This document shows, in pieces, positions 1 to 39,675 of a DNA stretch of 39,675 bases (position 1 is the stretch's first letter; each line of letters starts with the position of its first letter). The notes beneath the pieces were generated by a model that saw only the letters and a program-made list of their open reading frames with translations, was not told where the DNA came from and ran no database searches. This stretch comes from a virus, in the IMG/VR virus record IMGVR_UViG_3300049617_000064, positions 1 through 39,675 of that record; one strand, given 5' to 3'. The position numbers and the translations under genes were made by a program.

Positions 1-190
1 GCGGCAAAAGGCGGAAGCATTCCGATTTCGTCTTTCAATCCGGTTGGGATCATGCAGAGAGATGGCTTCATGAGAGCGCTTGAAGCCGCCAACCGCATCC
101 AGGACAAGATCACCGAGTTGACCAAGAAAAAACCCATGGAAATCATGGAGGCGTTTCTCAAGCCGGCAAAAGAAAGAATCGCACAGCTTG
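1..190. repeat. Terminal direct repeat, left copy
   Basis: Bases 1-190 match 39486-39675 at 189 of 190 positions. The single difference is T at 63 versus C at 39548. The repeat lies inside the large virion gene, and joining the two ends keeps that reading frame open. It therefore represents either overlap of a circular or circularly permuted assembly, or a short terminal redundancy. The mismatch is silent (GAT versus GAC, both Asp), which fits population variation between reads or strains. Confidence 0.95.
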
Positions 191-876
191 AGAAGGCGTT
201 TGGTGGCCGGTTGTCCGCAGACATGATGAAGTTTCTTCGCGATCCTGAATTGCTTGCCGAAAAAGCCGCGTCCAGGGTCCTGGATAGCGAAGAACTTCTT
301 GAAGAAGCCGCTCGACGGTTTCCCCAGGCAATGCCCGTTCTTCAAAAATATGCCCTTCAGAGGGTTTTGGCTCCTCTGTCCCGCGGTCAGGGATCGGGAA
401 CGCTTTTGACAACCCTTGGACGTTTGACGCCTAAGCAACAAGCAATTCTGTTTCCGGCCGGTATGGCGCAGGACTTGAAAAAACTTGCTGACGGACTGTC
501 TGTGATTCGAGGGCCTGCGACGCATTCGATGCCCGGATTCTCTGCCGGATCGGTGTTGGGTGCGGAGCCGGTTGGTCTTGAAGGACTGACGCCAGCCGGA
601 AAGCGGCAGTTCATCACCGAAGGAATTGCGAAACTTGTAACGTCTCCTATGTTCAATCGCGCCGTTCTGGCTGCTCTCGCCAAGGATGTGGCATCAGGAC
701 CGGCTGGCGTGACACGAGCCATGACCAAAATTCAGGCTTTGCTGTCGCTTGCGCCTCGATCAGTCATTCGCGGGGCTCAACCCGCCAAGACGCAAGGAAC
801 GCCAGAAGGCCAAGCGCAACTTCCGCAGCAAGAAAAGGCAAATCTGACCCAATCCTGGCGGAAATATCTCCAGTGA
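1..876 (+). CDS. C-terminal part of large putative ejection/internal virion protein (continues from window end)
   Basis: The frame is open from base 1, without a start, to TGA at 874-876. It is the continuation of the gene beginning with GTG at 37395. Joined across the terminal repeat the product is 988 residues, of which this piece supplies about residues 698-988. The segment is Ala/Leu/Lys-rich and looks mostly helical, and it ends in a Gln/Pro-rich tail. The family is not recognised by sequence. Its size, its helical character and its place downstream of other virion genes suggest an internal virion or DNA-ejection protein, which is an inference. The apparent ATG at 52 is internal and should not be taken as the start. 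The stop overlaps the GTG of the next small ORF (GTGA). Confidence 0.85.
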   Translation, partial: AAKGGSIPISSFNPVGIMQRDGFMRALEAANRIQDKITELTKKKPMEIMEAFLKPAKERIAQLEKAFGGRLSADMMKFLRDPELLAEKAASRVLDSEELLEEAARRFPQAMPVLQKYALQRVLAPLSRGQGSGTLLTTLGRLTPKQQAILFPAGMAQDLKKLADGLSVIRGPATHSMPGFSAGSVLGAEPVGLEGLTPAGKRQFITEGIAKLVTSPMFNRAVLAALAKDVASGPAGVTRAMTKIQALLSLAPRSVIRGAQPAKTQGTPEGQAQLPQQEKANLTQSWRKYLQ

Positions 877-1016
877 GCGGACCAGAAGACGACTTTGATC
901 CCGCCGTGAACGCGCCGGTTGACCCGCCGCCGATCCACGAGGAAGACGAGAGCGACGATCCGGTGGACGAGCCGGACGAGGCGCCCGACGTGGAAGACGA
1001 AGAATGCGAATCCTGA
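873..1016 (+). CDS. Small very acidic protein, 47 aa
   Basis: GTG at 873 overlaps the upstream stop (GTGA), and the ORF runs to TGA at 1014-1016, overlapping the start of the next gene at 1004. The product is dominated by Asp, Glu and Pro and has no hydrophobic stretch. Translational coupling on both sides and the otherwise empty gap between two clear genes argue that it is real. Function is unknown. Acidic low-complexity peptides of this size occur as virion accessory or DNA-mimic proteins, but nothing here decides that. Confidence 0.5.
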   Translation: MSGPEDDFDPAVNAPVDPPPIHEEDESDDPVDEPDEAPDVEDEECES

Positions 1017-2335
1017 TACTTGATGCGCAGGCGAACGCGCTGGATTGGGCGCTTCGCTGCATCGACGCGGGCCATCAGGTCAAATGGTATGTGCCGGACA
1101 GGCCAAGAACTGACCCGGTTGGCAAAGGTTTGGTGCCAAAGGTTCCGGAATGGCAGCCTTGGATGCGCTGGGCGGACATGGTCTTCGTCTCCGACAACAC
1201 GCGATATTTGCGCGACCTCGACGTGATCCGCCGCCAGCCGGATCATCCTGCCATCATTGCTGCGACCGAGGAGACCGCCGACTGGGAACTGGACCGCGAC
1301 CGCGGCATGGCGCTGTTCCGCAGCCATGGCATCGACGTGTCACCGTCCAAGAATTTCACTGATTATGACCAGGCGATCGCCTACGTCAAAAAACAGGACC
1401 GCGCCTTTGTCAGCAAGCCATCGGGAGACGCAGACAAGGCACTATCTTACGTCGGAAAAACGCCAGAAGACTTGATCTACATGCTGCAACGATGGAAAAA
1501 GCTTGGAAAACTCAAGGCGCCGTTCATTCTTCAGGAGAAGATTGAGGGCATAGAGATGGCTGTCGGCGGCTGGTTCGGGCCGGCGGGGTTCATGCGGGGC
1601 TGGTGCGAAAACTTCGAGTTCAAGAAACTATGCGACGGAGACCGCGGCCCCAACACGGGAGAGCAGGGTACGATCCTGCGCTACGTAGCAAAGTCGAAGC
1701 TAGCCGATCGCGTGCTCAAACCGTTTTCCCCGGACTTGGCGCGGGCGGGCTACGTCGGTTACATCGACGTGAACTGCATCGTGGATCAGCGTGGCGTGCC
1801 CTGGCCGCTCGAATTTACGATGCGGCCGGGCTGGCCAACGTTTAACATTCAACAGCCGGTGCACGAAGGAGACCCGGCAGAATGGTTGCTAAACCTGGCG
1901 CAAGGGGTCGCAAAGCAAAGCCCGGCGGTACTGGAAAAACTGGCGTGCGGGGTGGTGCTGTCAATCCCGGACTACCCCTTCAACAAACTGCCGATTCAGG
2001 ATGTGTCGGGGATACCGATCTACGGCCTGAAACCAAGCGTGCTGCCCCACGTCCACCCGTGCGAAATGGCGCTGGGAAAGGCGCCGCAGCGGATAGGGGA
2101 GTCGATCATCGATGCGCCGATCTGGGTGACGGCGGGGACGTATATCCTGGTGGCCTCGGGGACCGGGCAGACGGTGGAAGAGGCCCGCCGGCATGCATAC
2201 CAGGTGTTGGACAGGATATCGCTGCCGAACAGCCCGATGTATCGAACGGACATCGGACGACGGCTGAGCTGGCAGTTGTCGGACCTTCAGGCAAACGGAT
2301 ACGCCAGTGGGATGACGTACCGGGCGACCTCCTAG
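1004..2335 (+). CDS. PurD-like (GAR synthetase-related) ATP-grasp ligase
   Basis: The 443-residue product follows the order of phosphoribosylamine-glycine ligase. It has a Rossmann-like N-terminus (MRILILDA), an ATP-grasp core with a lysine-bearing strand near 137-140 (SKPSG) and an LQEKIEG strand near 177. The PurD signature DGDRGPNTG is at 211-219, a metal-site strand PLEFTMRPG lies around 268-276, and a C-terminal PurD-type domain follows (TVEEARRHAYQVLDRI, then MYRTDIGRRL). Known PurD enzymes join glycine to phosphoribosylamine using ATP. Here the usual N-terminal GGREHAL substrate loop is absent, and the EFN metal motif reads EFT. The substrate is therefore probably different, as an ATP-dependent carboxylate-amine ligase (inference). 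It sits among virion genes rather than metabolic ones. ATG at 1004 overlaps the preceding ORF. Confidence 0.8.
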   Translation: MRILILDAQANALDWALRCIDAGHQVKWYVPDRPRTDPVGKGLVPKVPEWQPWMRWADMVFVSDNTRYLRDLDVIRRQPDHPAIIAATEETADWELDRDRGMALFRSHGIDVSPSKNFTDYDQAIAYVKKQDRAFVSKPSGDADKALSYVGKTPEDLIYMLQRWKKLGKLKAPFILQEKIEGIEMAVGGWFGPAGFMRGWCENFEFKKLCDGDRGPNTGEQGTILRYVAKSKLADRVLKPFSPDLARAGYVGYIDVNCIVDQRGVPWPLEFTMRPGWPTFNIQQPVHEGDPAEWLLNLAQGVAKQSPAVLEKLACGVVLSIPDYPFNKLPIQDVSGIPIYGLKPSVLPHVHPCEMALGKAPQRIGESIIDAPIWVTAGTYILVASGTGQTVEEARRHAYQVLDRISLPNSPMYRTDIGRRLSWQLSDLQANGYASGMTYRATS

Positions 2336-2358
2336 CAAAACAGCAACTCCTCACCGAA

Positions 2359-2580
2359 ATGGCACTGGACAAGCAACGCCAGATTTTGAGCATTCCGCTT
2401 TTGGAGGGCACCGAAGGTTTCATGCAGCTTGCCAAGCTGCAAGCAACCACGGCTGCCAACGTGCTGACCACCACGACAAAGATCAGCGAGAATGGGTTCC
2501 GTGAGCGCGAGGCCGAGACGCTGACCAAACTGCTGGCATGCATCAAAGCCGGTCAGGCTGCCGATTTTTTGGACAATTAG
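2359..2580 (+). CDS. Small hypothetical protein, 73 aa
   Basis: ATG at 2359 begins 23 bases after the ATP-grasp gene ends, and the stop is TAG at 2578-2580. The product is helical-looking and polar, with a Thr-rich run near 37-40 and many Ala/Leu/Gln. No family is recognised. The frame stays open upstream through the ATP-grasp gene, but that part reads as an out-of-frame shadow rich in Arg/Gly/Pro, so the start at 2359 is preferred even though no good Shine-Dalgarno is visible. Its end overlaps the end of the portal gene on the opposite strand by four bases. Confidence 0.5.
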   Translation: MALDKQRQILSIPLLEGTEGFMQLAKLQATTAANVLTTTTKISENGFREREAETLTKLLACIKAGQAADFLDN

Positions 2581-4721
2581 GCCGTCTTGCGCGGCATTCC
2601 GGCCGGCATGTCATCGCTGTGCATCATGCCGGCCGGACCCTGCTGCCGCGGGCCTGACGACATGCCGCCAGACCTGGGCTGAGCGCCGCCGCCCGGTTGA
2701 CCGCCGCCCTGCTGCATCTGCTGGGCGTGCGCCTGGTTCTTCATCGCCATCTGCTGCTGATGCTTCCAGATGTGAGCCTTCAGAGCCTGCTGCGCCTGCG
2801 ACGAAGCGCCGCGCATCGCCTGTACGTGCGCCTGGATATGTTCGCGGTCATCGTCGGCCGCTGATACCGGAAGATCGAAACCTTGGAGGAGAAGCTGGTT
2901 CTCTTCCTGCGGCTGCATCCCGATCATGTCTTCGATGGGCGGGAAAATCTTTGGAGCAAGCCGCGGGCCGAACACGTTCTCGACAAAGCGTTCGATGATC
3001 GGCACCAGATTGACCTGGCGCCCGCCTAGGGCCTGCGGCGGGATTTCCTTGAGCACGTTCAGCCCGGCCATCTGCAACTGCATCTGCCGCTCCGAGCGGG
3101 CCTGCTCGACGCCCCACCATTTGAACCAGATGCGGTTGCCGCGCTGCTGAGGGGGAACCTCCTGCATCTGGCTTTTCTGGCCCTCGCGCCCAAACGCCTT
3201 GACCATGATTCCCTGCTTGCGGAACTGGGCGTCATATTCCATGAAACGCTGGATCATCGGCGTGAGGATCCCGGCCTCGAAGGGAATGATCGCGTCCGCC
3301 GTCGTCAGAATGTCGATTGCCTGTTCGGATGCGATCTCGGCTTGCGTCGGTTTCTTCGCACTAGACCTCTGGGCAATCATCGACGGGTTCACGCCCAGCG
3401 TGCGGAAAATCTGCTCCGTCAAGGATTGCACTAGCGCTAAGGCGTCGCGCCAGAGGGGCGGGAACTCGGCGAACTTTGTGGTCTGCGGGTTGACCTCCCA
3501 AACTGCTGCCAGGTCCAGCACCATGGACCCGGTTCGCGGATTGTCTAGCGGGTTGGTCATTATGATCGGCATCAGCGCATAATGCGCGCTGTCAGCGCCT
3601 TCGTTGAGGTAATCGTTCGCTGCGTATTGCAACTTCTCCACTGGCGCGACCTTCGAGATGCCCTTGAAGGAACCCCCGATCTTGTCCACCGGCGCGGAGA
3701 TCAGCGGGCACAAATCGCACCAGAAAGGGTTGAGCCGGCATCCCATCACCAGATCGTCGCCGCCGAAGAAGCTTTGGGTCAGCCGCATCACGTCATCAAC
3801 GCGTATCAGCTTCCAGGTCTCATAGACCAGTGCGTACTTGCCGCCGGATTTGGCGCCCGCCGCGTCAACGTGGTCTTTCATCGTATCCCGGCGAGGCATA
3901 TCCTGCACGGCTTTGCCGGACGCTTCCAATCGGTCCAGCAGGTCTTCCCCTGCCGATTTCAGGATTGCCCCTTCGTCAATTTTCTTTCGGATCATCGCCT
4001 TTGACCAGCGGCGCAAGATCGTCACGGAACCGCCATGCGTGTAGAGCGCGTCGTCTATCGAATCGGCAATCATCGGCACAATCATCAGGTCGTTGTCGGG
4101 AATGATCTCAACGTGCGGCCCGAAGTCATGCACGACCTCTTCGCGGATATCATCGACCCGGTCGTCCTCGTCCACGTCATCGGCGGACATCTGCAATCCT
4201 TCGACGCTAGGGCCTTGCACAACGCGCGTCGTCACGTAGCGCTTGCGTTCCCGCCAGTCGCAATAGATGCTGTATTGTCCCTCGATGTCTCCGGCGACAA
4301 AAAGCGCCGGTATGACCAGATCGCGAATGTGAGCGCGGTCGATGTAATGGTCGATGAGCGCCACGAGAGCGTGCGGCAATTCTTCGTCATCGGTCACCAC
4401 TTCTATATAGTTTCCGGATTGCGGAAATACCTGATTGGTAAATCTCGTCTTGCGGGCCTCTATCGCATCGTGCACGATCGGCACATACGCTTGGCTGGTT
4501 CCGTTGTAGTATTGCTCGCCGCCGAGTTCGCAGTTGAAACAGTCCCAGTAATCCATGTTCTTGTTGATTCGGTCGTCGCTTTCCTCGAAAGACTTGAGAA
4601 TCCCCCTGTAAGTCTTCAGAAGGTCTTCCCTTACCGACTTTATCTTCGAAAGTTCTGTTTTCCTGTCGATATCCTTTGCCACCTCAAGAAACCTGCAAAA
4701 AACCGAGTTGATACATTTCAC
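2577..4721 (-). CDS. Portal protein (head-tail connector)
   Basis: The roughly 714-residue product has the size and layout of P22-type portal proteins, the dodecameric ring through which DNA is packaged and ejected. It has an N-terminal helical region with a YYNGTSQAYVP-type segment and a long alpha/beta core, including RLNPFWCDLCP. The C-terminal barrel-like region is Gln/Met/Pro/Gly-rich. It is in one operon with the large terminase, as usual for packaging genes. Two starts are possible: GTG at 4721, or GTG at 4682, which follows the stop of the small upstream gene (TGAGGTG) and would remove 13 residues. Codon pattern cannot decide between them. Confidence 0.85.
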   Translation of the reverse strand: MKCINSVFCRFLEVAKDIDRKTELSKIKSVREDLLKTYRGILKSFEESDDRINKNMDYWDCFNCELGGEQYYNGTSQAYVPIVHDAIEARKTRFTNQVFPQSGNYIEVVTDDEELPHALVALIDHYIDRAHIRDLVIPALFVAGDIEGQYSIYCDWRERKRYVTTRVVQGPSVEGLQMSADDVDEDDRVDDIREEVVHDFGPHVEIIPDNDLMIVPMIADSIDDALYTHGGSVTILRRWSKAMIRKKIDEGAILKSAGEDLLDRLEASGKAVQDMPRRDTMKDHVDAAGAKSGGKYALVYETWKLIRVDDVMRLTQSFFGGDDLVMGCRLNPFWCDLCPLISAPVDKIGGSFKGISKVAPVEKLQYAANDYLNEGADSAHYALMPIIMTNPLDNPRTGSMVLDLAAVWEVNPQTTKFAEFPPLWRDALALVQSLTEQIFRTLGVNPSMIAQRSSAKKPTQAEIASEQAIDILTTADAIIPFEAGILTPMIQRFMEYDAQFRKQGIMVKAFGREGQKSQMQEVPPQQRGNRIWFKWWGVEQARSERQMQLQMAGLNVLKEIPPQALGGRQVNLVPIIERFVENVFGPRLAPKIFPPIEDMIGMQPQEENQLLLQGFDLPVSAADDDREHIQAHVQAMRGASSQAQQALKAHIWKHQQQMAMKNQAHAQQMQQGGGQPGGGAQPRSGGMSSGPRQQGPAGMMHSDDMPAGMPRKTA

Positions 4722-4893
4722 GCCTGTCGTGGGCGTTGTGGACCATCACGTAGTGGCCTTCAGGGTTTTTGTCGAAATAGGGCTTGCACCAGCAGTTCAT
4801 AGAAAACGTCTCATGACCACGGCTGTCACCGATCGGCACGCAGATGCGTTCGGTTTGATCCTTGCTGGTCAGCGCGGTCCAGTCATTCGACAT
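4684..4893 (-). CDS. Small phage protein with CWC motif, 69 aa
   Basis: ATG at 4893 lies just after the terminase stop (TAG at 4903-4901), and the ORF ends at 4684, overlapping the portal reading frame. The C-terminal half carries NCWCKP followed by a VHNAHDRRE segment. I associate this C-x-C plus His/Asp/Arg arrangement with small conserved proteins found near packaging genes in other phages, but I know of no function. The Cys pair and His residues could bind metal. An upstream in-frame ATG at 4962 would overlap terminase by 62 bases and seems less likely. Confidence 0.6.
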   Translation of the reverse strand: MSNDWTALTSKDQTERICVPIGDSRGHETFSMNCWCKPYFDKNPEGHYVMVHNAHDRREMYQLGFLQVS

Positions 4894-4900
4894 GACGAAA

Positions 4901-6871
4901 CTATCGCAGCGCAGAGCGGTAACGGCGGCCGTCTCGGCTATAGGCATAGCGAGCACCCTCATCGTCGTTTTCCTCCTGGACCTGACCGGCGAACGCTTCC
5001 AGACCCTCGCACAAACAGCGGTAGACGCCGCGAGAGGGTTCTGTCGCTACCACGTTACCTGGGAGAACCGGGTACGCATAACCGGAAGATAGGCCATTCA
5101 ATGCCCAACGCGCCCCGCCCCACACGATCAGGCCGGGTTCGCCGCGCACGCGGCGGCGGAGCGCCTCGCGTATCTCGGCCCGACCGCGCTCCGGCGGCGC
5201 GCCGGCCTGCGGGGTCTTTCCCAAAGCGAACAATGCTTGGGCGAGCCCGACGTTGCGCCATTTGTCGAAATGCAGCCTCGGAACCACAATCCGCAGGTCT
5301 CGCGCGCAACGCGCGAACTCGCGCACCATGTCCTCGACGGCATCGCCGGCACTACCCTCGGCCACAGCATCGCCCAGAACATAGGTGATTCCGCGATCCT
5401 CCTGGATCAGGAGCCCGGTCACCCATGCGCCATCGGCGTTCAAGGCGAGCCACACAGGCCGGTGCGGCAGCCGGGGCACGTCATCAGCCACGCATTCGGG
5501 CGAAAAATCCGGCCAGACGGGCTCACCAGGCCGCAAGAGAGACGCGAACGCCAGAGCATTCGGCGCATCGATCCTGCCGCGCGGAAAGCTCAAAAACTGC
5601 CCAACCGCGTTTGAAAACCGCGCCGCAGTGCCAGCGAACTCCACAGTCCGCGCAGCAAAATAGGATTGAAGTCCACGGATGAAGTCGATCTTGCCGCGTG
5701 GCGCCCGCATCGGACGAAGCGGAATCACCCCGCGGCGCACCTGCGCCTCCCGGATCGGCTGCAATATCCATTCGTTGAGACCATCCTCTTCCACGCCGAC
5801 GAGCACCGGGCGGTATTCCTCGTTCAGCCGAAACATCAGGTCGATGACCTCGGACGGCTGGAGGAACGCGCCATCGCATTCCCAGACCACCAGCTTGCCG
5901 CCAGGCGCCCAGGACCACACCGCCCATCCAGTCGTCGCAGAGCCCTTGTTCGTGGTTCGCGCCGGATCGACCATGACATACACCGCCTGCCAGGTGCGGA
6001 CGCGCATTTCTTCGTAGATGAACATGCCTGGCTTGAACATGCGGTCTGAATCTGCCTCGGACTCGCACATATATTCCTGCATGAACGAGCGGTGCTCGCC
6101 CATGGCCGCCGAAGCGGCTTCGATGCGGTCGATGTCCTCCAGCGTGTATTTGTCCGGCCAGGCGGTCTCCCACTTGCCTTCGTCGTCGATGTATTTGACA
6201 GGGTAACACCGTTCGACCCAACCTTCGGCCGCGGCCAACTGGTTCAAAAGACACCGCTCCGCCAACGGCGTGCCAAGCATCCGGATGGGCGTGCGAAGCG
6301 GATGTGCCAGCGCCGGCAGGAACTCGGACATGAACCAGCGCATGTTCTCCTGGACAGCGTCCGGGGACTTCACCCATTCGTCGTCTTCCAGATCGTCGAT
6401 GAGCACGAAATCCGGCCTGATCGTCTCCTTGGCGCCCCGCATGGACTGCCGGGCGCCGAAAACCTCGAAAATCACGTTGTTGGAGAGCTGGATCTTGCCC
6501 TCGTTCCAAACCGTGCCGCGCAAGTCGCCGAACGCGCCGTTCAGATAGGGGTTCTGGTCGATTTCCTGCTTGATCGAACCAAGGCGTTGTGCGGCGCGCG
6601 TGTAAGTATTGCCGAGGATCACGCAGTATTGGAACTCGCGCAGACCCGCCTTGATCAGCGCTGTTTCTTCAGCAAGCGTGCTTTTGGCAAATCCGCGAAA
6701 CGCCTTGAATACGATGCGCGGATGCGGTCCGTGCATGTCCCGAATGACTTCCTCATGCGCCGGCGCTGTCTTCAGAGAGTGACGCCGCTTGAACAGCAGA
6801 CGGTGCGCCGCCACCCGATCCGTGATGATCTGGCTGAGCAGCTCGCGCCGGGGGTCGGCCTCCTCAATCAA
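4901..6871 (-). CDS. terL: Terminase large subunit
   Basis: The 656-residue packaging motor has an N-terminal ATPase and a C-terminal RNase H-like nuclease. The Walker A-like loop FRGFAKST is at about residues 58-65, with Ala where GKS/GKT ATPases have Gly, a variation seen in many terminases. The Walker B segment FVLIDDLEDDE is at about 155-165. A coupling motif LGTP is near 199-202. The nuclease core begins with VMVDPARTTNKG (first acidic residue about D302), followed by VGVEEDGLNEW. It translocates DNA into the prohead through the portal and cuts concatemers. It overlaps the KTSC gene by four bases. No convincing small terminase gene was found nearby. Confidence 0.93.
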   Translation of the reverse strand: MIEEADPRRELLSQIITDRVAAHRLLFKRRHSLKTAPAHEEVIRDMHGPHPRIVFKAFRGFAKSTLAEETALIKAGLREFQYCVILGNTYTRAAQRLGSIKQEIDQNPYLNGAFGDLRGTVWNEGKIQLSNNVIFEVFGARQSMRGAKETIRPDFVLIDDLEDDEWVKSPDAVQENMRWFMSEFLPALAHPLRTPIRMLGTPLAERCLLNQLAAAEGWVERCYPVKYIDDEGKWETAWPDKYTLEDIDRIEAASAAMGEHRSFMQEYMCESEADSDRMFKPGMFIYEEMRVRTWQAVYVMVDPARTTNKGSATTGWAVWSWAPGGKLVVWECDGAFLQPSEVIDLMFRLNEEYRPVLVGVEEDGLNEWILQPIREAQVRRGVIPLRPMRAPRGKIDFIRGLQSYFAARTVEFAGTAARFSNAVGQFLSFPRGRIDAPNALAFASLLRPGEPVWPDFSPECVADDVPRLPHRPVWLALNADGAWVTGLLIQEDRGITYVLGDAVAEGSAGDAVEDMVREFARCARDLRIVVPRLHFDKWRNVGLAQALFALGKTPQAGAPPERGRAEIREALRRRVRGEPGLIVWGGARWALNGLSSGYAYPVLPGNVVATEPSRGVYRCLCEGLEAFAGQVQEENDDEGARYAYSRDGRRYRSALR

Positions 6872-12429: not shown

Positions 12430-12457
12430 TTGCATAATTCACCGATCCGGTTAAACT
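12430..12457 (+). promoter_or_regulatory. Predicted promoter for rightward early operon
   Basis: TTGCAT at 12430-12435 and TAAACT at 12452-12457, spaced by 16 bases, resemble a sigma-70 promoter. A CACCGAT half site lies in the spacer, so a bound regulator would block it. The first gene downstream starts at 12484 with GGAG seven bases before the ATG. Confidence 0.45.
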
Positions 12458-12483
12458 GTGCGCATCAACACCGGAGCCGACCA

Positions 12484-13302
12484 ATGACAACATTCAGCAT
12501 CAAAAACCGCTGGACGGGCGCGGTCCAATACACGTGCGAATTGTCCGCAGAAGCGGCGGGATTGAGCGCAAGCCTGCAACTGGGATTTGCCGTAAAATCG
12601 GCTGTTGCCATTGGCGCGGACCTGGGTGGCGCGAACCTGCGTGGCTCGAACCTGCGTGACGCGAACCTGGGTGAAGCGAACCTGCGTGACGCGAACCTGG
12701 GTGGCGCGGACCTGGGTGGCGCGAACCTGTGTGGCGCGAACCTGCGTGGCTCGAACCTGCGTGACGCGGACCTGGGTGACGCGAACCTGGGTGAAGCGAA
12801 CCTGCGTGACGCGGACCTGCGTGGCGCGGACCTGTGTGGCGCGAACCTGCGTGGCTCGAACCTGCGTGGCGCGAACCTGCGTGGCTCGAACCTGCGTGGC
12901 GCGGACCTGGGTGACGCGAACCTGGGTGGCGTCAAGCAAGACTTTCTCGCGGAAGTCTTGCGCCTGCCCGACGAACTGGAATTTTTGCGTTCGGCTATTG
13001 TGGAGGGTCGCATCGACGGCTCGACATACAAGGGCGATTGCGCTTGTTTAGCGGGCACGCTTGCCAAATCCCGATATCCTGATCAAGAGTATAGCGGATA
13101 TTCGTTTGACGTTGCACCAGGCGTAATATTCCACGCGGCCAGTGGTAGCCCGCGTGAAATCTTTTTCACCGCGATCCGCCCCGGCGACACACCCAAAAAC
13201 AATAGCGCGGCAGCCATCGCGCTTTCCTGGACAGACGAAGCAATCGCCATCCGCGACATGATCCGCGCCACAGCGCCGTCTGTTGACAAAAGGCAACTAT
13301 AA
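12484..13302 (+). CDS. Pentapeptide-repeat protein, 272 aa
   Basis: Residues about 44-148 consist of 21 consecutive pentapeptides of the A(D/N)LxX type (for example GANLR, GSNLR, DANLG), which fold into a right-handed beta-helix. The helix has a short N-terminal lead. A C-terminal globular domain of about 120 residues follows (LRLPDELEFLRSAIVEGRID onward). Known relatives such as Qnr and MfpA mimic DNA and bind gyrase. Many others have no known role. As the first gene after the predicted early promoter it may be an early host-interaction protein, which is an inference. The start at 12484 is chosen over 12430 for its GGAG site and because the earlier one lies in the promoter. Confidence 0.9.
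   Translation: MTTFSIKNRWTGAVQYTCELSAEAAGLSASLQLGFAVKSAVAIGADLGGANLRGSNLRDANLGEANLRDANLGGADLGGANLCGANLRGSNLRDADLGDANLGEANLRDADLRGADLCGANLRGSNLRGANLRGSNLRGADLGDANLGGVKQDFLAEVLRLPDELEFLRSAIVEGRIDGSTYKGDCACLAGTLAKSRYPDQEYSGYSFDVAPGVIFHAASGSPREIFFTAIRPGDTPKNNSAAAIALSWTDEAIAIRDMIRATAPSVDKRQL
12613..12927 (+). repeat. 21 tandem 15-bp units encoding pentapeptides
   Basis: The coding DNA repeats every 15 bases (core GCGAACCTGCGTGGC and close variants) for 315 bases. Third codon positions are almost invariant: CTG for Leu, GCG for Ala, AAC/GAC for Asn/Asp. Conservation at silent positions points to recent expansion by slippage or recombination rather than protein-level selection alone. The number of units is likely to vary between relatives. 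Confidence 0.9.
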
Positions 13303-25953: not shown

Positions 25954-27315
25954 ATGGCCGTCACGAACACATCCAGCCAATTTCGCAGCGATGTTGTCAA
26001 CTATATCGAAAAGAAGACGCTGCCGCTGACGCGCCGGCAACTTGTCGCGTATCAGTTCGCCAACAAGGTGAATCTGCCCGACGGTTACGGCAACACCTGG
26101 ACCGCGACCCGCTACAACCGCCTCCCTCTGCCGAGCGCGCCGCTCGCCGAGGGCGTGCCTCCGAACGGCGAGACGATGACTGTTGGACAGGTCACCGGCG
26201 TCGCTCAGCAATGGGGTGATGCGGTCACGATCACCGATGTCGCGGAAATGCAGATTTTCCATCCGCTCTTCAAAGAGGCAACCAAGCTGCTTGCGTTGCA
26301 GATCGCAGAGACCGACGAGCGGCAGTCCTATCTCACGCTTGGCGGCGGCACCCAGGTCAATTTCGTCAACCAGCGTGGTTCTCGCGCGGCTCTGGTGGCC
26401 GGTGACGTTCTTGATCCCCACACGGTCAACCGCACGGTGGCCGCACTGGCAACCATCGGCGCGCCCCGTTTCAACGGGGACGAAGAAACCGACGAAATGG
26501 TGGACATCAAGTCCGGTGGCGCGCGCGCAAGCGAGAACCCGCGGACCCACAGCCACTACGTCGCCGTGTGCCATCCGCTCGTCGCCGCCGACTTTTCGGA
26601 AAGCCCGACTGTGCAGACGGCTTGGAGCTATTCCGACATCAACCGACTCTACAATTTCGAGGTCGGAGAGTGGCGCGGCGTCACTTTCTGCGAATCGAAC
26701 ATGGTGCCGTTCTGGACCGGCGTTGCTGCGGTCAACGGAGGAACCGCCACCACCGGCGGTGCTCTTGCCGTTTCCACGACCTACTACCTTCAGGTCACCG
26801 GGCAGAACAACACCAACCAGTACGAGTCCTATATCTGCCAAGTCGATTCGGCGGTGACGACCAGCGGCACGCAGAACGCCATCACCTACGTCCTGCCGAG
26901 CACTCCCGGATACATCTACAGCGTCTATATCGGCACTTCTGCCGCCGGTATCAGCAGCCTGGCGCTGACCAGCAGCACGGCGGCGCCGCAAAGCGGCCCG
27001 TATAACGGCGTCGCCACGCAGATTGCGCCCGGCACGACGATCTTGCTGACCGGCATCGGTCCGCAGCAGGTGCCGCCGCAAGCGCCGGCCACTGGCTTGT
27101 CGGTGTATCCGACGTTCGTTTTCGGCCGCGACTATTACAGCATGATCAGCCTGTCGGGCCTGGAAATGTTCTACCTGAGGAACGCCGACAAGGCCGATAT
27201 TCTCAACCAAAAGCGGGTCATCGGCTGGAAGAAGTTCTGGGGCATGGTCATCACCAACCAGCAGTTTGGCGCGCGTATCGAGGGCGTTTCCAACTTCACG
27301 GCCACGTTCGGCTGA
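25954..27315 (+). CDS. Major capsid protein, N4-gp56 family
   Basis: The 453-residue protein has GGAGGG five bases before ATG. It fits the N4-gp56 (HK97-fold) coat pattern: an N-terminal helix with RSDVVNYIEKKTLPLTRRQL, a basic E-loop region with WTATRYNRLPLP, then DAVTITDVAEMQIFHPLFKE and ATKLLALQIAETDERQ. Later segments are YVAVCHPLVAADF and TFCESNMVPF. Between about 255 and 380 lies a Thr/Ser/Gly-rich beta insertion (TYYLQVTGQNNTNQYESYIC onward) before the C-terminal VFGRDYYSMISL strand returns to the core. That insertion is probably a surface-exposed Ig- or FN3-like domain. Confidence 0.85.
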   Translation: MAVTNTSSQFRSDVVNYIEKKTLPLTRRQLVAYQFANKVNLPDGYGNTWTATRYNRLPLPSAPLAEGVPPNGETMTVGQVTGVAQQWGDAVTITDVAEMQIFHPLFKEATKLLALQIAETDERQSYLTLGGGTQVNFVNQRGSRAALVAGDVLDPHTVNRTVAALATIGAPRFNGDEETDEMVDIKSGGARASENPRTHSHYVAVCHPLVAADFSESPTVQTAWSYSDINRLYNFEVGEWRGVTFCESNMVPFWTGVAAVNGGTATTGGALAVSTTYYLQVTGQNNTNQYESYICQVDSAVTTSGTQNAITYVLPSTPGYIYSVYIGTSAAGISSLALTSSTAAPQSGPYNGVATQIAPGTTILLTGIGPQQVPPQAPATGLSVYPTFVFGRDYYSMISLSGLEMFYLRNADKADILNQKRVIGWKKFWGMVITNQQFGARIEGVSNFTATFG

Positions 27316-34330: not shown

Positions 34331-34781
34331 CTTTCGGTGCCTTGGGTTCCTCGACACGTTCGATGCGGTGGCCCAGCTTCACCGGCTGCAATCCGGGCGC
34401 GCTGACACGTTCCTGCTGGACGAAAGCTGGCGCTCCGGGCGCTCTCTTGTCGCACGCGCTCGAAAGCTCATCCCGCGCGGCGACCAGTTGAGGATTACAG
34501 CCGAAGTTCAGCGCCGCGCGCCGGGCGGACCGTCCGCTTGGCGCATCGCCAACGGTGGGTTTTTTGAGTTCCGCATCCCGCTTGTCACGAACCCCGGAGT
34601 GGTGGAGCATCGCGGTCCGGAAAGCGTGTCGATGGGGGTCGGAAGCCTGTGGTGGTGCAACGGCGAGACTTGGCGCTGCGAGACAAACTGGGGTCAGCAC
34701 CCCTCCTACCACATGGTGATCCATGCCGAACCTCCCGCCGCTGACCTTCCAGTGGGAGCCATTGTCGATACTGTTGGATAA
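34323..34781 (+). CDS. Hypothetical protein, 152 aa
   Basis: ATG at 34323 overlaps the small basic gene's end. The N-terminus is helical with Arg pairs, then come beta segments (QLRITAEVQRRAPGGPSAWR, then GGFFEFRIPLVTNPGVV). Near the end a Trp/Cys cluster (LWWCNGETWRCETNW) is followed by HMVIHAEP. No family is recognised. Its last 59 bases overlap the next gene in another frame, which is unusual for this genome. Confidence 0.5.
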   Translation: MPNFRCLGFLDTFDAVAQLHRLQSGRADTFLLDESWRSGRSLVARARKLIPRGDQLRITAEVQRRAPGGPSAWRIANGGFFEFRIPLVTNPGVVEHRGPESVSMGVGSLWWCNGETWRCETNWGQHPSYHMVIHAEPPAADLPVGAIVDTVG

Positions 34782-35205
34782 CGACAATCTCGACCTGCTG
34801 GTGCGTCAGCATTGGCGGGAAATCGCGCTCGACCACGATACAGTGCCCCTTGATGTCGATTGGGAGGCGTATCTGGACCAAGAGCGGGAAGGGCGGTGGC
34901 GGGCATTCGTCGGCCGGCGGGCTGAAAAACTGGTGTCTTACATTCCCGCCCACTTTCATCGACCGGCGCGCTACCGATCCACGCTCTACATCCAGGAGGA
35001 TACGATTTGGGTGGTTCCAGATGAGCCAGATCGCGGATTGGTGTGGTGGAGGACGGTTTCCGCGTTCAAAGCTGCGGTGCCGCGACCGTGCAAACTTCAG
35101 ATTAAATCCAGGCTTCGAGACGGAAAAACGACCACGCCGAGCCGGATTTTGGAACGGCTTGGATTGCCGGCGGTGGAAGTGCTACATTCGGCGTATCTGG
35201 AGTAG
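34723..35205 (+). CDS. Phage GNAT-like acetyltransferase, 160 aa
   Basis: It has the pattern of the small GNAT-like proteins that occur beside tail and internal virion genes of T7-like and related phages: LLVRQHWREIALDHDTVPLD near 25-44, RAFVGRRAEKLVSYI, then RYRSTLYIQEDTIWVVPDE and KLQIKSRLRD. GNATs move an acetyl group from acetyl-CoA to an amine. The target in these phages is unknown. ATG at 34723 overlaps the preceding gene; no strong ribosome site is visible, so the start could be slightly downstream. Confidence 0.7.
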   Translation: MPNLPPLTFQWEPLSILLDNDNLDLLVRQHWREIALDHDTVPLDVDWEAYLDQEREGRWRAFVGRRAEKLVSYIPAHFHRPARYRSTLYIQEDTIWVVPDEPDRGLVWWRTVSAFKAAVPRPCKLQIKSRLRDGKTTTPSRILERLGLPAVEVLHSAYLE

Positions 35206-35217
35206 GAAACCCCGCCC

Positions 35218-36057
35218 TTGGGCAGCCCGTCCGTTCCGCATGCGCCGCAATACTCGAATTTCGGGCAGGCGAACAATGTCTACGGATCGTCTTTAGGGGC
35301 GATCCAAGGGCTCGCCGGGCAGGGTCAGGGCTACACGGAGAACATCCTGAGCAACCCATTCGCGGGTGGGTATCAGGGTGCTGCCGGGACGGCTGGCGGG
35401 CAATACACGGCCCTCGGCAGCAACGCGACAGGCGCTTCGAACGCGCTCTACGGCGCTGGCAACGCGGCGCTTCCTTACGCCTCGCAAATCCTGCAAGCGG
35501 GCTTTGATCCGCAGAACGCGCTCTATGCGCGAACGCAGAACCAGGTGCAGCAACAGACGCTGGCGGGTCTTGCCGCGACCGGCACGGCCTCGACGCCATA
35601 CGGCGCGGGCGTTCTGGGGCAGACAAACAGCAACTTCAACATCGACTGGCAGAACAACCAGCTTGCTCGGCAGAGCCAGGCTGCCAGCGGTTTCGGGTCA
35701 CTGCTGAGCGGCGCTGAGGGCGCTTACACGTCTGGCGCCGCGCAGGGGGGCTCTGGCGCCGCGGCGACGCTGGAAGGCGGTCAACTGCCCTACTCGACGG
35801 CCAACAGCATCAACCAGAACGATCTCAGCGCCCTCTCTAACCAGCAGGGGCTTTACGGCACAGCGGAGAGCGGCGCGCAGGGGTATTTGGGGCTGGCGAA
35901 CCAGGGGTATCAGAACGAGTTGTCCCAGTATCAAGACCAATACCAGCAGAATCAGGGTATTTGGAGCGGGCTTGGGTCAATCCTGGGCCTTGGAACCGGA
36001 GGAATGAATAGCACTCTGGGGGGGCAAGGCATTTCCTGGCTTGGAGGACTAATTTAG
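35218..36057 (+). CDS. Gly/Gln/Asn-rich internal virion-type protein, 279 aa
   Basis: TTG at 35218 is the apparent start, with AGGAAA about ten bases upstream. The sequence is low in charge and rich in Gly, Ala, Gln, Asn, Ser and Tyr (SNATGASNALYGAGNAALPY, QQTLAGLAATGTASTPYGAG). It ends with a hydrophobic Gly-rich tail (GIWSGLGSILGLGTGG, then GISWLGGLI) that could insert in a membrane. It is first of three consecutive genes of this kind. In podoviruses these encode ejected proteins that form the DNA channel. Assignment by composition and position. Confidence 0.6.
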   Translation: MGSPSVPHAPQYSNFGQANNVYGSSLGAIQGLAGQGQGYTENILSNPFAGGYQGAAGTAGGQYTALGSNATGASNALYGAGNAALPYASQILQAGFDPQNALYARTQNQVQQQTLAGLAATGTASTPYGAGVLGQTNSNFNIDWQNNQLARQSQAASGFGSLLSGAEGAYTSGAAQGGSGAAATLEGGQLPYSTANSINQNDLSALSNQQGLYGTAESGAQGYLGLANQGYQNELSQYQDQYQQNQGIWSGLGSILGLGTGGMNSTLGGQGISWLGGLI

Positions 36058-37398
36058 ATGCCCGCGCTTTCCTTCCTGGCGGGCATCGGAACCGCGCTCG
36101 ACGCCTATGCCAAGCAGCAGGAGCGGCAGCAGAAGCTTCAGCTTTCGGCGATGGAGCTAAAATTCCAGCAGCAGCAGATGCAGTTGCAGAACCAGAAAGA
36201 CGCGGTTTGGGCGCACTACGACATGGCCGAGGCCGCGCAGAAGGACGCGCCCCCGCCGCAGGACCCCGCGACAGCGCCGTATCAGGTGAGCCAGCAGCCG
36301 GGCGGACCCCAAGGGGGCGGATCATCGCCGCAGCAAGGCTCGCCGATACCCGGCGCCCGGCCGATGCCTGGTGCCCAACCACCGGGCGGGATGCCGGGCG
36401 CCATGCCCATGGGTGGCGGGCAGCCGCCGATGCAACCGGGGATGCAGCCTCAGCAACGACCGCAGGGCGCGGGCGATCCACTGTCTGCGTTGCTTGCCCA
36501 AGCGCCGACAATTCAAACCATCGCGCGAGCAATGGCGAAAAACGCGCCTCCTGGAACACCTCCGCAAGCCATTATGGCGGCCGCCCGAGAGGCGCTTCCG
36601 CAGGCGCAGAAAGCGTGGTCGGACAAGCTTGACGTTGTCAAAGCGCAGCTTGCCGAGCAGGACAGGGTGCGCGCGGCAAAAGATCGCGAGCAGACACACG
36701 CAGATAACATGCTCAATGTGCAATCTAATTTTGCTTTGAGGTCGCAAGAGCACGCAGACAATCTGGCGTTCAGAAAGCTTGCATTAGCGCAAACCGACGA
36801 ACAGAGGCAAGACGCCCTTCTCGAACGGCGCACGCAATTTGACATTGAGCAAAGGCGCCTTCACGACGAATTCACGCAGCGCGAGCAGGACAAGATTTAT
36901 CAGGAGAAGAACCGTCCTCCGAATGCTGAGGAATTGAAAGAGATAAACACCGCAAGCGACATAAACGGCCTCCTGGATGACATAGATTCTCTCAAGACCA
37001 GAATGCAAACCGGAGCGGCAAGCGTAGGTTTGGTGGGCATGGCAAAGCGAGGCTACGAAACATTGACTGGACCTCTCGGCGGAGACCAGTCGAACAGAAT
37101 TTTTGCCGATGATCTTGTCGAGGTCAGGCGCCGCCTCCTTGGCGCTGTAGGGCGCAGCGGATATCTGACAAAAGCAGACAGGTCAGAAGCCGAAAAGCTG
37201 CTTCTTGGCTTGCAACCAGGGGATAACCCGAGCAGAACCCTGAACAGTCTGAACAATGCGCAAAAATGGATGGCTCAGAAATTTGGTCACATCCTAAAGA
37301 AATACCCTTCTGGCGAAGCGGCGGGATCATCGGACCAAACGCAGCCAATGTCTTCTCCGCAGTTCAAATATGACGCGCAGGGTAACAGGCTGCCGTGA
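36058..37398 (+). CDS. Putative internal/ejection protein, Gln-rich coiled coil, 446 aa
   Basis: ATG at 36058 follows the preceding TAG directly. It has a hydrophobic start (PALSFLAGIGTALDAYAKQQ), a Gln-rich helix, a Pro/Gly/Gln-rich linker at about 65-145, a long charged coiled coil at about 150-300 and a C-terminal helical domain with LTGPLGGDQSNRIFADDLVE. This three-part form fits podovirus internal proteins that unfold to pass through the tail. The stop overlaps the GTG of the next gene (GTGA). Confidence 0.6.
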   Translation: MPALSFLAGIGTALDAYAKQQERQQKLQLSAMELKFQQQQMQLQNQKDAVWAHYDMAEAAQKDAPPPQDPATAPYQVSQQPGGPQGGGSSPQQGSPIPGARPMPGAQPPGGMPGAMPMGGGQPPMQPGMQPQQRPQGAGDPLSALLAQAPTIQTIARAMAKNAPPGTPPQAIMAAAREALPQAQKAWSDKLDVVKAQLAEQDRVRAAKDREQTHADNMLNVQSNFALRSQEHADNLAFRKLALAQTDEQRQDALLERRTQFDIEQRRLHDEFTQREQDKIYQEKNRPPNAEELKEINTASDINGLLDDIDSLKTRMQTGAASVGLVGMAKRGYETLTGPLGGDQSNRIFADDLVEVRRRLLGAVGRSGYLTKADRSEAEKLLLGLQPGDNPSRTLNSLNNAQKWMAQKFGHILKKYPSGEAAGSSDQTQPMSSPQFKYDAQGNRLP

Positions 37399-39675
37399 CC
37401 ATACAGGCGCAAGCGGCAGACGGCAGCATTCATCAATTTCCGGACGGGACCAATCCTTCGGTAATCGACCGAGTGATGAAAGCGTATGCGACCAGTAAAA
37501 GCCCGCAACAAAGCGCACCTTCGCAACCGCTTGATCCGGCTCTTCGCTCGCAAGCCGAGGACTTCCTGAAAAACCCGGATTTACCAGCCCAATCCACGAC
37601 ACCCCAGGAGGCCGCGGCGCGCGCGCAATCTGGTCCTGCTGATGACCAGCAGCGCGCACGCGATTTGCGGTCGGGGTCTCATGACGCCCCCGCCTATCAG
37701 AAGCAAGGCCAGTCGCTTCCTGGATGGCGTCAAACTCTGTACGACATGGCGACCAATGACGTAGAGCGGTTTAAAATCTTGTCCCGCTACTACGGAAAAG
37801 ACAACGTAGGTAGAGATCAGTATGGTCTCTATATCAAATCCAAGGACGGCAGGCAGGTTTATCCCAGAAGCAACCTCGGTTCTGGATTGGCAGCTAATGC
37901 CGCCCCGGTCATTGGCGGCGCTGCGGGAGCCTTGGCCGGGTCGGCAGCCGGCGGTCCAGCAGGAGCCGTTGGTGGCTCTGCTGGAGGGGCGGTTGTTGGT
38001 CAGGGGGTCAACGACGCAGTTCTCGGCATCATGGGGTTTTATGATCGAACTATGGGCAGCGAGGCCGCCAACCTGGCTACGCAGGGTTTGGAAAGCGGCG
38101 CTTTGGAAGGCGCCGGAAAACTTGTAGGCGCTGGCGCAAAAGCCGCTGGAACATCGGCGAAGGATTTGGCGACCAAGCCGTTACGAAGCGCTCTGGGATA
38201 CGATCCGGAGAAGGCTTCTGTCGCGAGAGACCTTGTTTCAAAGGGCTACAGCATAAATCCGGCTTCGTACGCTCCGGACGCGAAGAGAATTGCAAGGGTT
38301 GTAGAGTCATCCAGGTTATACGGCGCCGATTACACGGCGAAATCGGAAGAGAAGTTCGCGCGAGACCAAGCGATTGCGACGATGAAAAAGCAAGGCATGA
38401 CAGATGAGCAGGCTGCCGCAGAATACGAACGCATGAAAACACCTTCTGCGGTTTCTTCGCAACCCGCAGGACAAGCGTTGAAGACGGCGGCAGCAGATGA
38501 AGCGGAATCCGGTAGAGGTGCGACCGATCGAGCAAGATCGTCCATTTTGTCCGAGGCGGAGCAGCAGGGCAAAAACGCTATCGCGCAGCGGGACGCAACC
38601 GTTCGACAGTTGAAAACCAGATACTCCGACCTGCAATCTCGCTTACAGACTTCATTGGATCAAGGAAAGCGCACGCTCGACCAACTCGCCACGCAAGTCA
38701 AGAAAGGCCCACTCGCCGAGGACTACGCAAAACGCATCATAGAATATCGCAACGGGATACAGAGAGACGCCACAGAACTCTACAACTATGCAGACGAGAT
38801 CGCGGGGGACTCGCGAGTCAACGCAGAGCCCGCCAGAGAAGCCGCGACGCAGTTCATGCAAAATCTGCCGAAAGATTTGAGAGAGCAATTTCCGGTTTTG
38901 GTAAAGCGTATCGCTGGTATGGCGGGAGGGGAGGAAGGCGGGTCAGAAATGACTTTCGGCGAAGCGCATTATTTGCGTTCTCAGCTTCGGGACTTGGCAT
39001 ATTCCGACAAACTTTCTCCTGAATTCAAAAAGGGTGCTTACAAACACCTTTCTTCTCAGGTTGATAAAATACTGCACGATTCGGAAGCTTCTCCTTCCCT
39101 AAAGGAAGCCGCAAAGACTCTTGATTTTGCAGACGAGTTTTATGCCAAAAACATGAGGCAGTTCAACAACGCTACAATGGAGAATCTGGTCAAGCAGATC
39201 AAAGACGGCCTTCCTCCAGACCCGGTGAAAATCGCTCGCATGGTTGCTCAAAACGGAGAGATGGCAACTTTGGACCGCGTTCTTCGCATCGGTGGGGAGC
39301 CTCTGCGCAAGCGGGTCGCGGCTGCCGACCTCCAAGACGTGTTGGCGCAATCGAGAAAACTTGGAAGCCAGAACATTGATCCAAAGGAATTGTTGAATGC
39401 GTTGACGGAACGCCAGAACAACCGGACTTTGACCAGGCTATACGGTTCACAGGGCAACGCCCTGATGCTTTACGCCACCCGTTTGGCGGCAAAAGGCGGA
39501 AGCATTCCGATTTCGTCTTTCAATCCGGTTGGGATCATGCAGAGAGACGGCTTCATGAGAGCGCTTGAAGCCGCCAACCGCATCCAGGACAAGATCACCG
39601 AGTTGACCAAGAAAAAACCCATGGAAATCATGGAGGCGTTTCTCAAGCCGGCAAAAGAAAGAATCGCACAGCTTG
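37395..39675 (+). CDS. Large putative ejection/internal virion protein, N-terminal part (runs off window end)
   Basis: GTG at 37395 is coupled to the previous stop. The frame is open to the window end and continues at base 1 to 876, for 988 residues. The N-terminus has a DGSIHQFPDGTNPSVIDRV segment, like the lead motif of other phage internal proteins. At about 165-212 comes a Gly/Ala membrane-active-looking stretch (VIGGAAGALAGSAAGGPAGA onward). The remainder is mostly helical and charged (MKKQGMTDEQAAAEYERMKT; RYSDLQSRLQTSLDQGKRTL). It is probably ejected into the cell with the DNA. No lysozyme or protease motif was seen. Confidence 0.7.
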   Translation, partial: MTIQAQAADGSIHQFPDGTNPSVIDRVMKAYATSKSPQQSAPSQPLDPALRSQAEDFLKNPDLPAQSTTPQEAAARAQSGPADDQQRARDLRSGSHDAPAYQKQGQSLPGWRQTLYDMATNDVERFKILSRYYGKDNVGRDQYGLYIKSKDGRQVYPRSNLGSGLAANAAPVIGGAAGALAGSAAGGPAGAVGGSAGGAVVGQGVNDAVLGIMGFYDRTMGSEAANLATQGLESGALEGAGKLVGAGAKAAGTSAKDLATKPLRSALGYDPEKASVARDLVSKGYSINPASYAPDAKRIARVVESSRLYGADYTAKSEEKFARDQAIATMKKQGMTDEQAAAEYERMKTPSAVSSQPAGQALKTAAADEAESGRGATDRARSSILSEAEQQGKNAIAQRDATVRQLKTRYSDLQSRLQTSLDQGKRTLDQLATQVKKGPLAEDYAKRIIEYRNGIQRDATELYNYADEIAGDSRVNAEPAREAATQFMQNLPKDLREQFPVLVKRIAGMAGGEEGGSEMTFGEAHYLRSQLRDLAYSDKLSPEFKKGAYKHLSSQVDKILHDSEASPSLKEAAKTLDFADEFYAKNMRQFNNATMENLVKQIKDGLPPDPVKIARMVAQNGEMATLDRVLRIGGEPLRKRVAAADLQDVLAQSRKLGSQNIDPKELLNALTERQNNRTLTRLYGSQGNALMLYATRLAAKGGSIPISSFNPVGIMQRDGFMRALEAANRIQDKITELTKKKPMEIMEAFLKPAKERIAQL
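39486..39675. repeat. Terminal direct repeat, right copy
   Basis: Matches bases 1-190 with one substitution (C at 39548, T at 63). Removing one copy gives a 39,485-bp unit in which the large ejection-protein gene is uninterrupted. Confidence 0.95.

Follow-up and report, generated by a model that had tools for sequence, protein, structure and literature searches.

The described enzyme nearest to the phage ligase that we report here, by both sequence and structure, is PurD. In A. aeolicus numbering, PurD contacts ATP through Lys103, Lys143, Glu185, Glu192 and Lys214, glycine through Asp212, Arg287 and Glu292, and Mg through Glu100 and Lys214 (PMC8880213). Viral purD and GART genes have been reported as auxiliary metabolic genes or as viral protein clusters (PMC11360552, PMC11097641, PMC12043954). 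Phage ATP-grasp enzymes of other kinds have also been described. LUZ24-like phages carry ATP-grasp cassettes with an amidoligase and an amidotransferase (PMC3890496), and the phiEco32 cassette has been suggested, as cited in PMC10580990, to alter the cell wall against superinfection. The R2K (CDC123-like) phage ATP-grasp peptide ligases are predicted to modify proteins, and some of their families are linked to GNAT genes (PMC4431377). A full PurD fold in late genes is not described in PMC3890496, PMC10580990 or PMC4431377, and no description of the family presented here was found in the literature searched, which excluded most subscription journals and preprints.

The window, a stretch of 39,675 nucleotides, corresponds to positions 1 to 39,675 of IMG/VR virus record IMGVR_UViG_3300049617_000064. 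It encodes a PurD-fold ATP-grasp ligase at 1004-2335 (plus strand), in a frame that opens with ATG, contains no internal stops and specifies 443 amino acids. Pfam GARS_A matched the protein (2.1e-9, 37.9 bits, above the cut-off of 27), GARS_C scored slightly under its cut-off (2e-7, 31.7 bits; cut-off 34.8), and the NCBIfam purD model (TIGR00877) gave 3e-19 and 69 bits, below the equivalog cut-off of 288. When the ligase was searched against the PDB with phmmer, PurD enzymes were the only matches, and a profile built from 51 phage relatives likewise found PurD only (best 1.3e-25). The AlphaFold model has a pLDDT of 92 and a pTM of 0.91. Its 15 best Foldseek matches in the PDB were all PurD (1.1e-28, TM 0.75), with the whole chain aligned; the weakest of these stood at 7e-24, whereas the next family, PurK, stood at 2e-17. 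The protein has a complete PurD fold by this comparison, including the C-terminal domain, in which R414, D416 and I417 are common to PurD. On these scores, the homology of the ligase to PurD is well past chance level. The first-pass annotation, which was made from the sequence letters, had placed here a PurD-like ATP-grasp ligase that keeps the PurD C-terminal domain, and both statements hold. PHROGs and PADLOC contained no match for the ligase, and none of the BFVD viral models exceeded a TM of 0.43 by query length.

Compared with PurD (TIGR00877; PDB 2yw2, 1gso, 2ys6), the ligase is alike in fold, domain order, ATP-grasp residues and C-terminal domain. It differs in overall identity (about 20%, under the equivalog cut-off) and at the phosphoribosylamine (PRA) loop, the Glu of the GPE motif, the glycine-site Asp and Glu, the metal Asn, one ATP Lys and the adenine-side Glu. 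The LUZ24-like and phiEco32 cassettes resemble the window ligase insofar as they contain phage ATP-grasp amide ligases. However, their ATP-grasp proteins are about 290 amino acids long and are encoded in an early module with partner genes, whereas the window ligase has a full PurD fold, is a late gene and lacks such partners: no amidoligase or glutamine amidotransferase gene was found in the scanned window ORFs or in the scanned conserved neighbour clusters of relatives. The R2K ligases belong to a different ATP-grasp clade; the window ligase has no Pfam R2K match, and its nearest fold is that of PurD.

The PurD contacts given above were transferred onto the ligase through sequence alignments, and residues were compared across 125 distinct near-full-length phage proteins. 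The ATP contacts correspond, in the order listed, to R98, K138, Q177, E184 and K207, the glycine contacts to E205, R274 and T279, and the Mg contacts to E95 and K207. All of these are invariant in 125 of 125 proteins except T279, which is Leu or Ile in other members. The key positions of the ligase are K138, E184, E205, K207, E270, T272 and R274. The fold, the ATP Lys and the acidic metal ligand that define the ATP-grasp superfamily are all present, with K138, K207, E184 and E270 found in every protein. The second metal ligand, which is Asn or Glu in ATP-grasp enzymes, is neither: the Asn of EFN is T272, and Thr occupies this position in 125 of 125. One ATP Lys is replaced by Arg (R98) and the adenine-side Glu by Gln (Q177) in all 125 proteins. 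The glycine site is not that of PurD: its Asp has become Glu throughout the set and its second acidic residue, Glu in PurD, is Thr, Leu or Ile in the members shown, although its Arg (R274) has been kept throughout. Both parts of the PurD phosphoribosylamine motif are missing. The GGREHA loop is lost throughout the family, with a replacement segment that carries conserved D7, R18 and H24, and the Glu of GPE is N65, an Asn in 125 of 125. Additionally, the second Gly of the PurD GGMG motif is E220, a Glu in all 125. The absence of the GGREHAL loop and the change of EFN to EFT had both been read correctly in the first-pass annotation. The sequence DGDRGPNTG, which it took for a kept PurD signature, is confined to the window protein and a small number of relatives, whereas the consensus of the family reads NGDxGVATGEQGT.

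These results strongly support the idea that the acyl and amine sites of the ligase have been rebuilt while its ATP and catalytic residues were kept. An ATP machinery that stays fixed, with both substrate sites altered and then fixed again, is the pattern expected if the enzyme had changed its substrate and had then come under strong selection. Strong purifying selection on the family is itself strongly supported by a dN/dS of about 0.07 (median of 28 independent pairs). E205, together with the absence of the second acidic contact, speaks against plain glycine as a substrate, and the missing GGREHA and GPE motifs speak against phosphoribosylamine. Retention of R274 points to a carboxylate that is still bound in the manner of PurD.

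Could the gene nonetheless be an ordinary auxiliary purD that raises GAR synthesis for phage replication? The full-length PurD homology and fold would fit, as would the retention of R274 and K138. However, the purD model score lies well below the equivalog cut-off, and the PRA loop, GPE Glu, glycine-site residues and metal Asn are altered in every member. The gene also occupies a late-operon position, and no other purine gene was found among the window ORFs scanned with Pfam and PHROGs (some small ORFs lay outside the scan), in agreement with the first-pass annotation. We therefore regard this explanation as very improbable. Of the checks that had been proposed, structure prediction returned a PurD fold, and inspection of the active-site residues showed an altered PRA loop and altered glycine-site residues. 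On this evidence the window ligase is a real gene and is not a PurD orthologue. Its product very probably differs from that of PurD, and for this reason it should not carry a purine-gene annotation.

Relatives of the ligase were collected in several ways. A scan of IMG/VR with the window protein found 104 stretches that encode relatives, of which 80 were kept (52-98% identical). A second scan, with the MW202796.1 protein as query, gave 49 loci, and neighbourhood-based scanning led to a third subfamily that is about 47% identical to the window protein. When INPHARED was searched by tblastn, MW202796.1 (Myoviridae sp. ct2os315) was the only clear relative among the 50,697 phage records, and it is an environmental genome, not an isolate. 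Other tblastn matches stood at about 20-26%, and some of them were annotated bacterial purD genes in records of bacterial origin. The MW202796.1 gene (42140-43453) is a full-length member of the family that is unannotated in the GenBank record. It and the IMG/VR relatives match the window ligase at 45% identity over near full length and likewise sit at the late-gene end.

When 84,980 species genomes were scanned for a sequence pattern, the family turned up four times, each time on a MAG contig of 40-55 kb. These contigs (L085, L086, L087 and L088) were binned in Acetobacteraceae, Elusimicrobia, Methylococcaceae and Sphingomonas MAGs; they look like phage genomes, and the bins are a host hint at most. 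The phage copies scored 71-83 bits against the purD model, whereas the separate true purD genes of the same MAGs scored 471-557 bits. No further copy was present in 300 genomes from the family of one MAG and 369 from the class of another (667 besides those MAGs). Because the copies lie on phage contigs and are absent from the other bacteria sampled, we infer that this is a phage family and not a host gene acquired on one occasion. The IMG/VR identifiers of L224-L226, L228, L234, L237 and L238 resemble those of isolate genomes, which suggests that these are prophages of cultured bacteria. Over 341 bases, one such isolate-like prophage record matches Burkholderia Vgr genes at 73%, which is no more than a weak lead.

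The genes around the ligase can be followed across the ends of the record. Positions 1-190 and 39486-39675 form a terminal direct repeat that is identical except for one base, so that the nominally linear record is circular or circularly permuted, with a closed length of about 39,485 bases. A frame that is still open at the record end (37395-39674, plus strand) continues at 1-876 (plus strand) across this junction. The joined frame, from 37395 to 876, has 989 codons with a single, terminal stop, encodes a 988-residue ejection-type protein and ends 127 bases upstream of the ligase. The late order in the window is a GNAT-like acetyltransferase family gene (34723-35205), a gene for a conserved 279-residue late protein (35218-36057) identified by gene clustering and alignment, a gene for a 446-residue late protein (36058-37398), the 988-residue gene, the ligase, and a small final gene of about 73 codons (2359-2580; start uncertain), which was recognized by an iterated HMM match of 102 bits. 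All lie on the plus strand. The nearest contig (L002) matches window positions 871-4533 at 98.7%, which backs the local arrangement. The 446-residue protein has no family match in Pfam or PHROGs. The GNAT-like gene, which belongs to the same operon, lies four genes ahead of the ligase and is conserved there; its profile matched acetyltransferases in the PDB (7.5e-6), and one relative's copy matches the acetyltransferase family phrog_1249.

Relatives show the same late order as the window. Their constant ligase neighbours are the upstream ejection-type genes, including a large gene of about 1000 codons, and the downstream side is usually occupied by replication genes, not by terminase or portal genes. 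In the window, a probable portal or head-tail connector gene (2577-4721, minus strand; phrog_332, E 0.0012, a weak match in a frame that codon-position G+C favours) and the terminase large subunit gene (4901-6871, minus strand; phrog_38, 2.4e-54) are convergent with the ligase. Thus, of the ejection, portal and terminase neighbours named in the first-pass annotation, the ejection-type genes are constant, whereas the other two lie on the opposite strand and are unusual in relatives. In MW202796.1, the terminase and portal genes share a strand with the late genes. An ejection role for the large upstream proteins is likely, judging from their position, their size and weak SLT, M15 peptidase or LPD38 matches among positional counterparts of the 988-residue protein. 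The window protein itself did not match a profile of the large protein of other phages, and its equivalence to them is one of position and size, together with one BLAST match of 25% over 777 columns. Neither the large upstream proteins nor the 279-residue protein had an informative PDB match.

Linkage was measured by entering loci through the 279-residue protein family and counting those with at least 7 kb downstream (n=43). The ligase was present in 40 of the 43, a proportion that is likely too high for the wider group because the entry profile was built beside ligase genes. L171, L205 and L206 lack it; in these three loci and in L183 the large ORF is followed by the small gene, with 36-114 bases between them, so that the slot is empty in at least four relatives. 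The ligase is absent from the entire 45,971-base record behind L206. The small gene lies at 14194-14622 in L171, 13745-14227 in L205 and 11876-12391 in L206. In 92 of 169 relatives it comes directly after the ligase, and in phages that lack the ligase it comes directly after the large gene. Gene order therefore strongly supports a slot that is fixed but optional, holding a gene that is common yet dispensable. The search for orthologues and their neighbourhoods that had been recommended has in this way provided 125 phage relatives and a fixed slot after an ejection-type gene.

Mean column identity is 61% for the ligase and 28-30% for the adjacent virion proteins. This bears on whether the protein might be a dead ATP-grasp fold that serves as a structural virion component. 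The replacement of the metal Asn by Thr in all members and the virion genes all around the ligase could be read in that way. But no protein of the comparison set departs from the ATP and catalytic Lys, Glu and Arg residues, the ligase evolves far more slowly than the adjacent virion genes, and its slot is empty in some phages. We consider a dead fold highly unlikely. An active ligase with changed substrates, taken as a claim in itself, is in our judgement highly probable. The suggestion that a ligase had been repurposed is well supported, as the catalytic residues are intact, the protein is not an ordinary PurD and its setting is among late virion genes.

The first-pass annotation favoured modification of the virion or of packaged DNA as the task of this ligase. 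Formation of a hypermodified base carrying an amide in packaged DNA would suit the phage context and the terminase nearby in the window. However, no conserved base-synthesis or DNA-modification gene accompanies the ligase, replication modules differ among relatives, and terminase is not a usual neighbour in them. These observations make DNA a scarcely credible target. Modification of proteins deserves more weight. An active ligase might modify a host protein or a late protein of the phage, for example one of the ejection proteins, by attaching an amino acid or acyl group, and it might itself be packaged and ejected. Its constant place beside the large ejection-type gene, in one operon with the GNAT-like gene, would fit such a role, as would the weak LPD38 match of a positional counterpart, LPD38 being a domain of phage polyvalent proteins (PMC5512222). 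Against this, the ligase is much more conserved than the candidate virion targets, and it is missing in some phages that retain the same late genes. We regard protein modification as possible but rather unlikely.

A small-molecule target is favoured by the same comparison, because a ligase that acts on proteins might drift along with them and its identity greatly exceeds that of its virion neighbours. The remodelled N-terminal domain, which in PurD is of a small-molecule-binding type and which is kept here, and the fact that the ligase can be absent, lean in the same direction. These features speak against the modification of virion proteins. The full statement, that this is a neofunctionalized, phage-specific PurD-fold ligase that is active and has a conserved small-molecule target, seems to us evenly balanced between true and false. 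Some points count against it. Every member has Thr where PurD has the metal Asn, and normal two-metal ATP-grasp chemistry is therefore not guaranteed; the position beside ejection genes also suits a protein target; and rapid drift is common in virion proteins, one of which could still be the substrate.

By analogy with the ATP-grasp superfamily, we propose that the ligase would bind Mg-ATP, that R274 would grip the carboxylate of the substrate, that an acyl phosphate would then be made, and that the acyl group would be passed to an amine held in the altered N-terminal domain to give an amide. Conserved small molecules, namely an amino acid or another carboxylate together with an amine, are likelier substrates than virion proteins of the phage. 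The place of the gene among the late genes suggests a product with an effect late in infection; it might, for example, work on the host envelope or counter competing phages, although this is a guess. More broadly, we lean slightly towards the view that the family makes a new phage-specific amide or conjugate, which would be either a metabolite or a tag joined covalently to components that are ejected or belong to the host envelope. If so, this would be a new, late-acting phage biochemical system that surveys perhaps count as purine metabolism.

The family is a new form, specific to phages, of a familiar type of enzyme. It seems to be a purine enzyme that became a ligase confined to phages, and its active-site changes are fixed across more than 100 related phages. 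Published reports of viral 'purD' may include it, and virome surveys that infer boosted purine synthesis from 'purD' may be counting it. The markers that part the family from PurD are E[FW]T in place of EFN, GE[QM]GT in place of GGMG, and the lack of a GGREHA loop.

Elsewhere in the window, the major head protein is encoded at 25954-27315 (plus strand; phrog_1357, 1.1e-32), and the portal and terminase genes (2577-6871, minus strand) are opposite in strand to the capsid and other late genes. The early region encodes a pentapeptide-repeat protein at 12430-13302 (plus strand; Pfam 5.5e-32).
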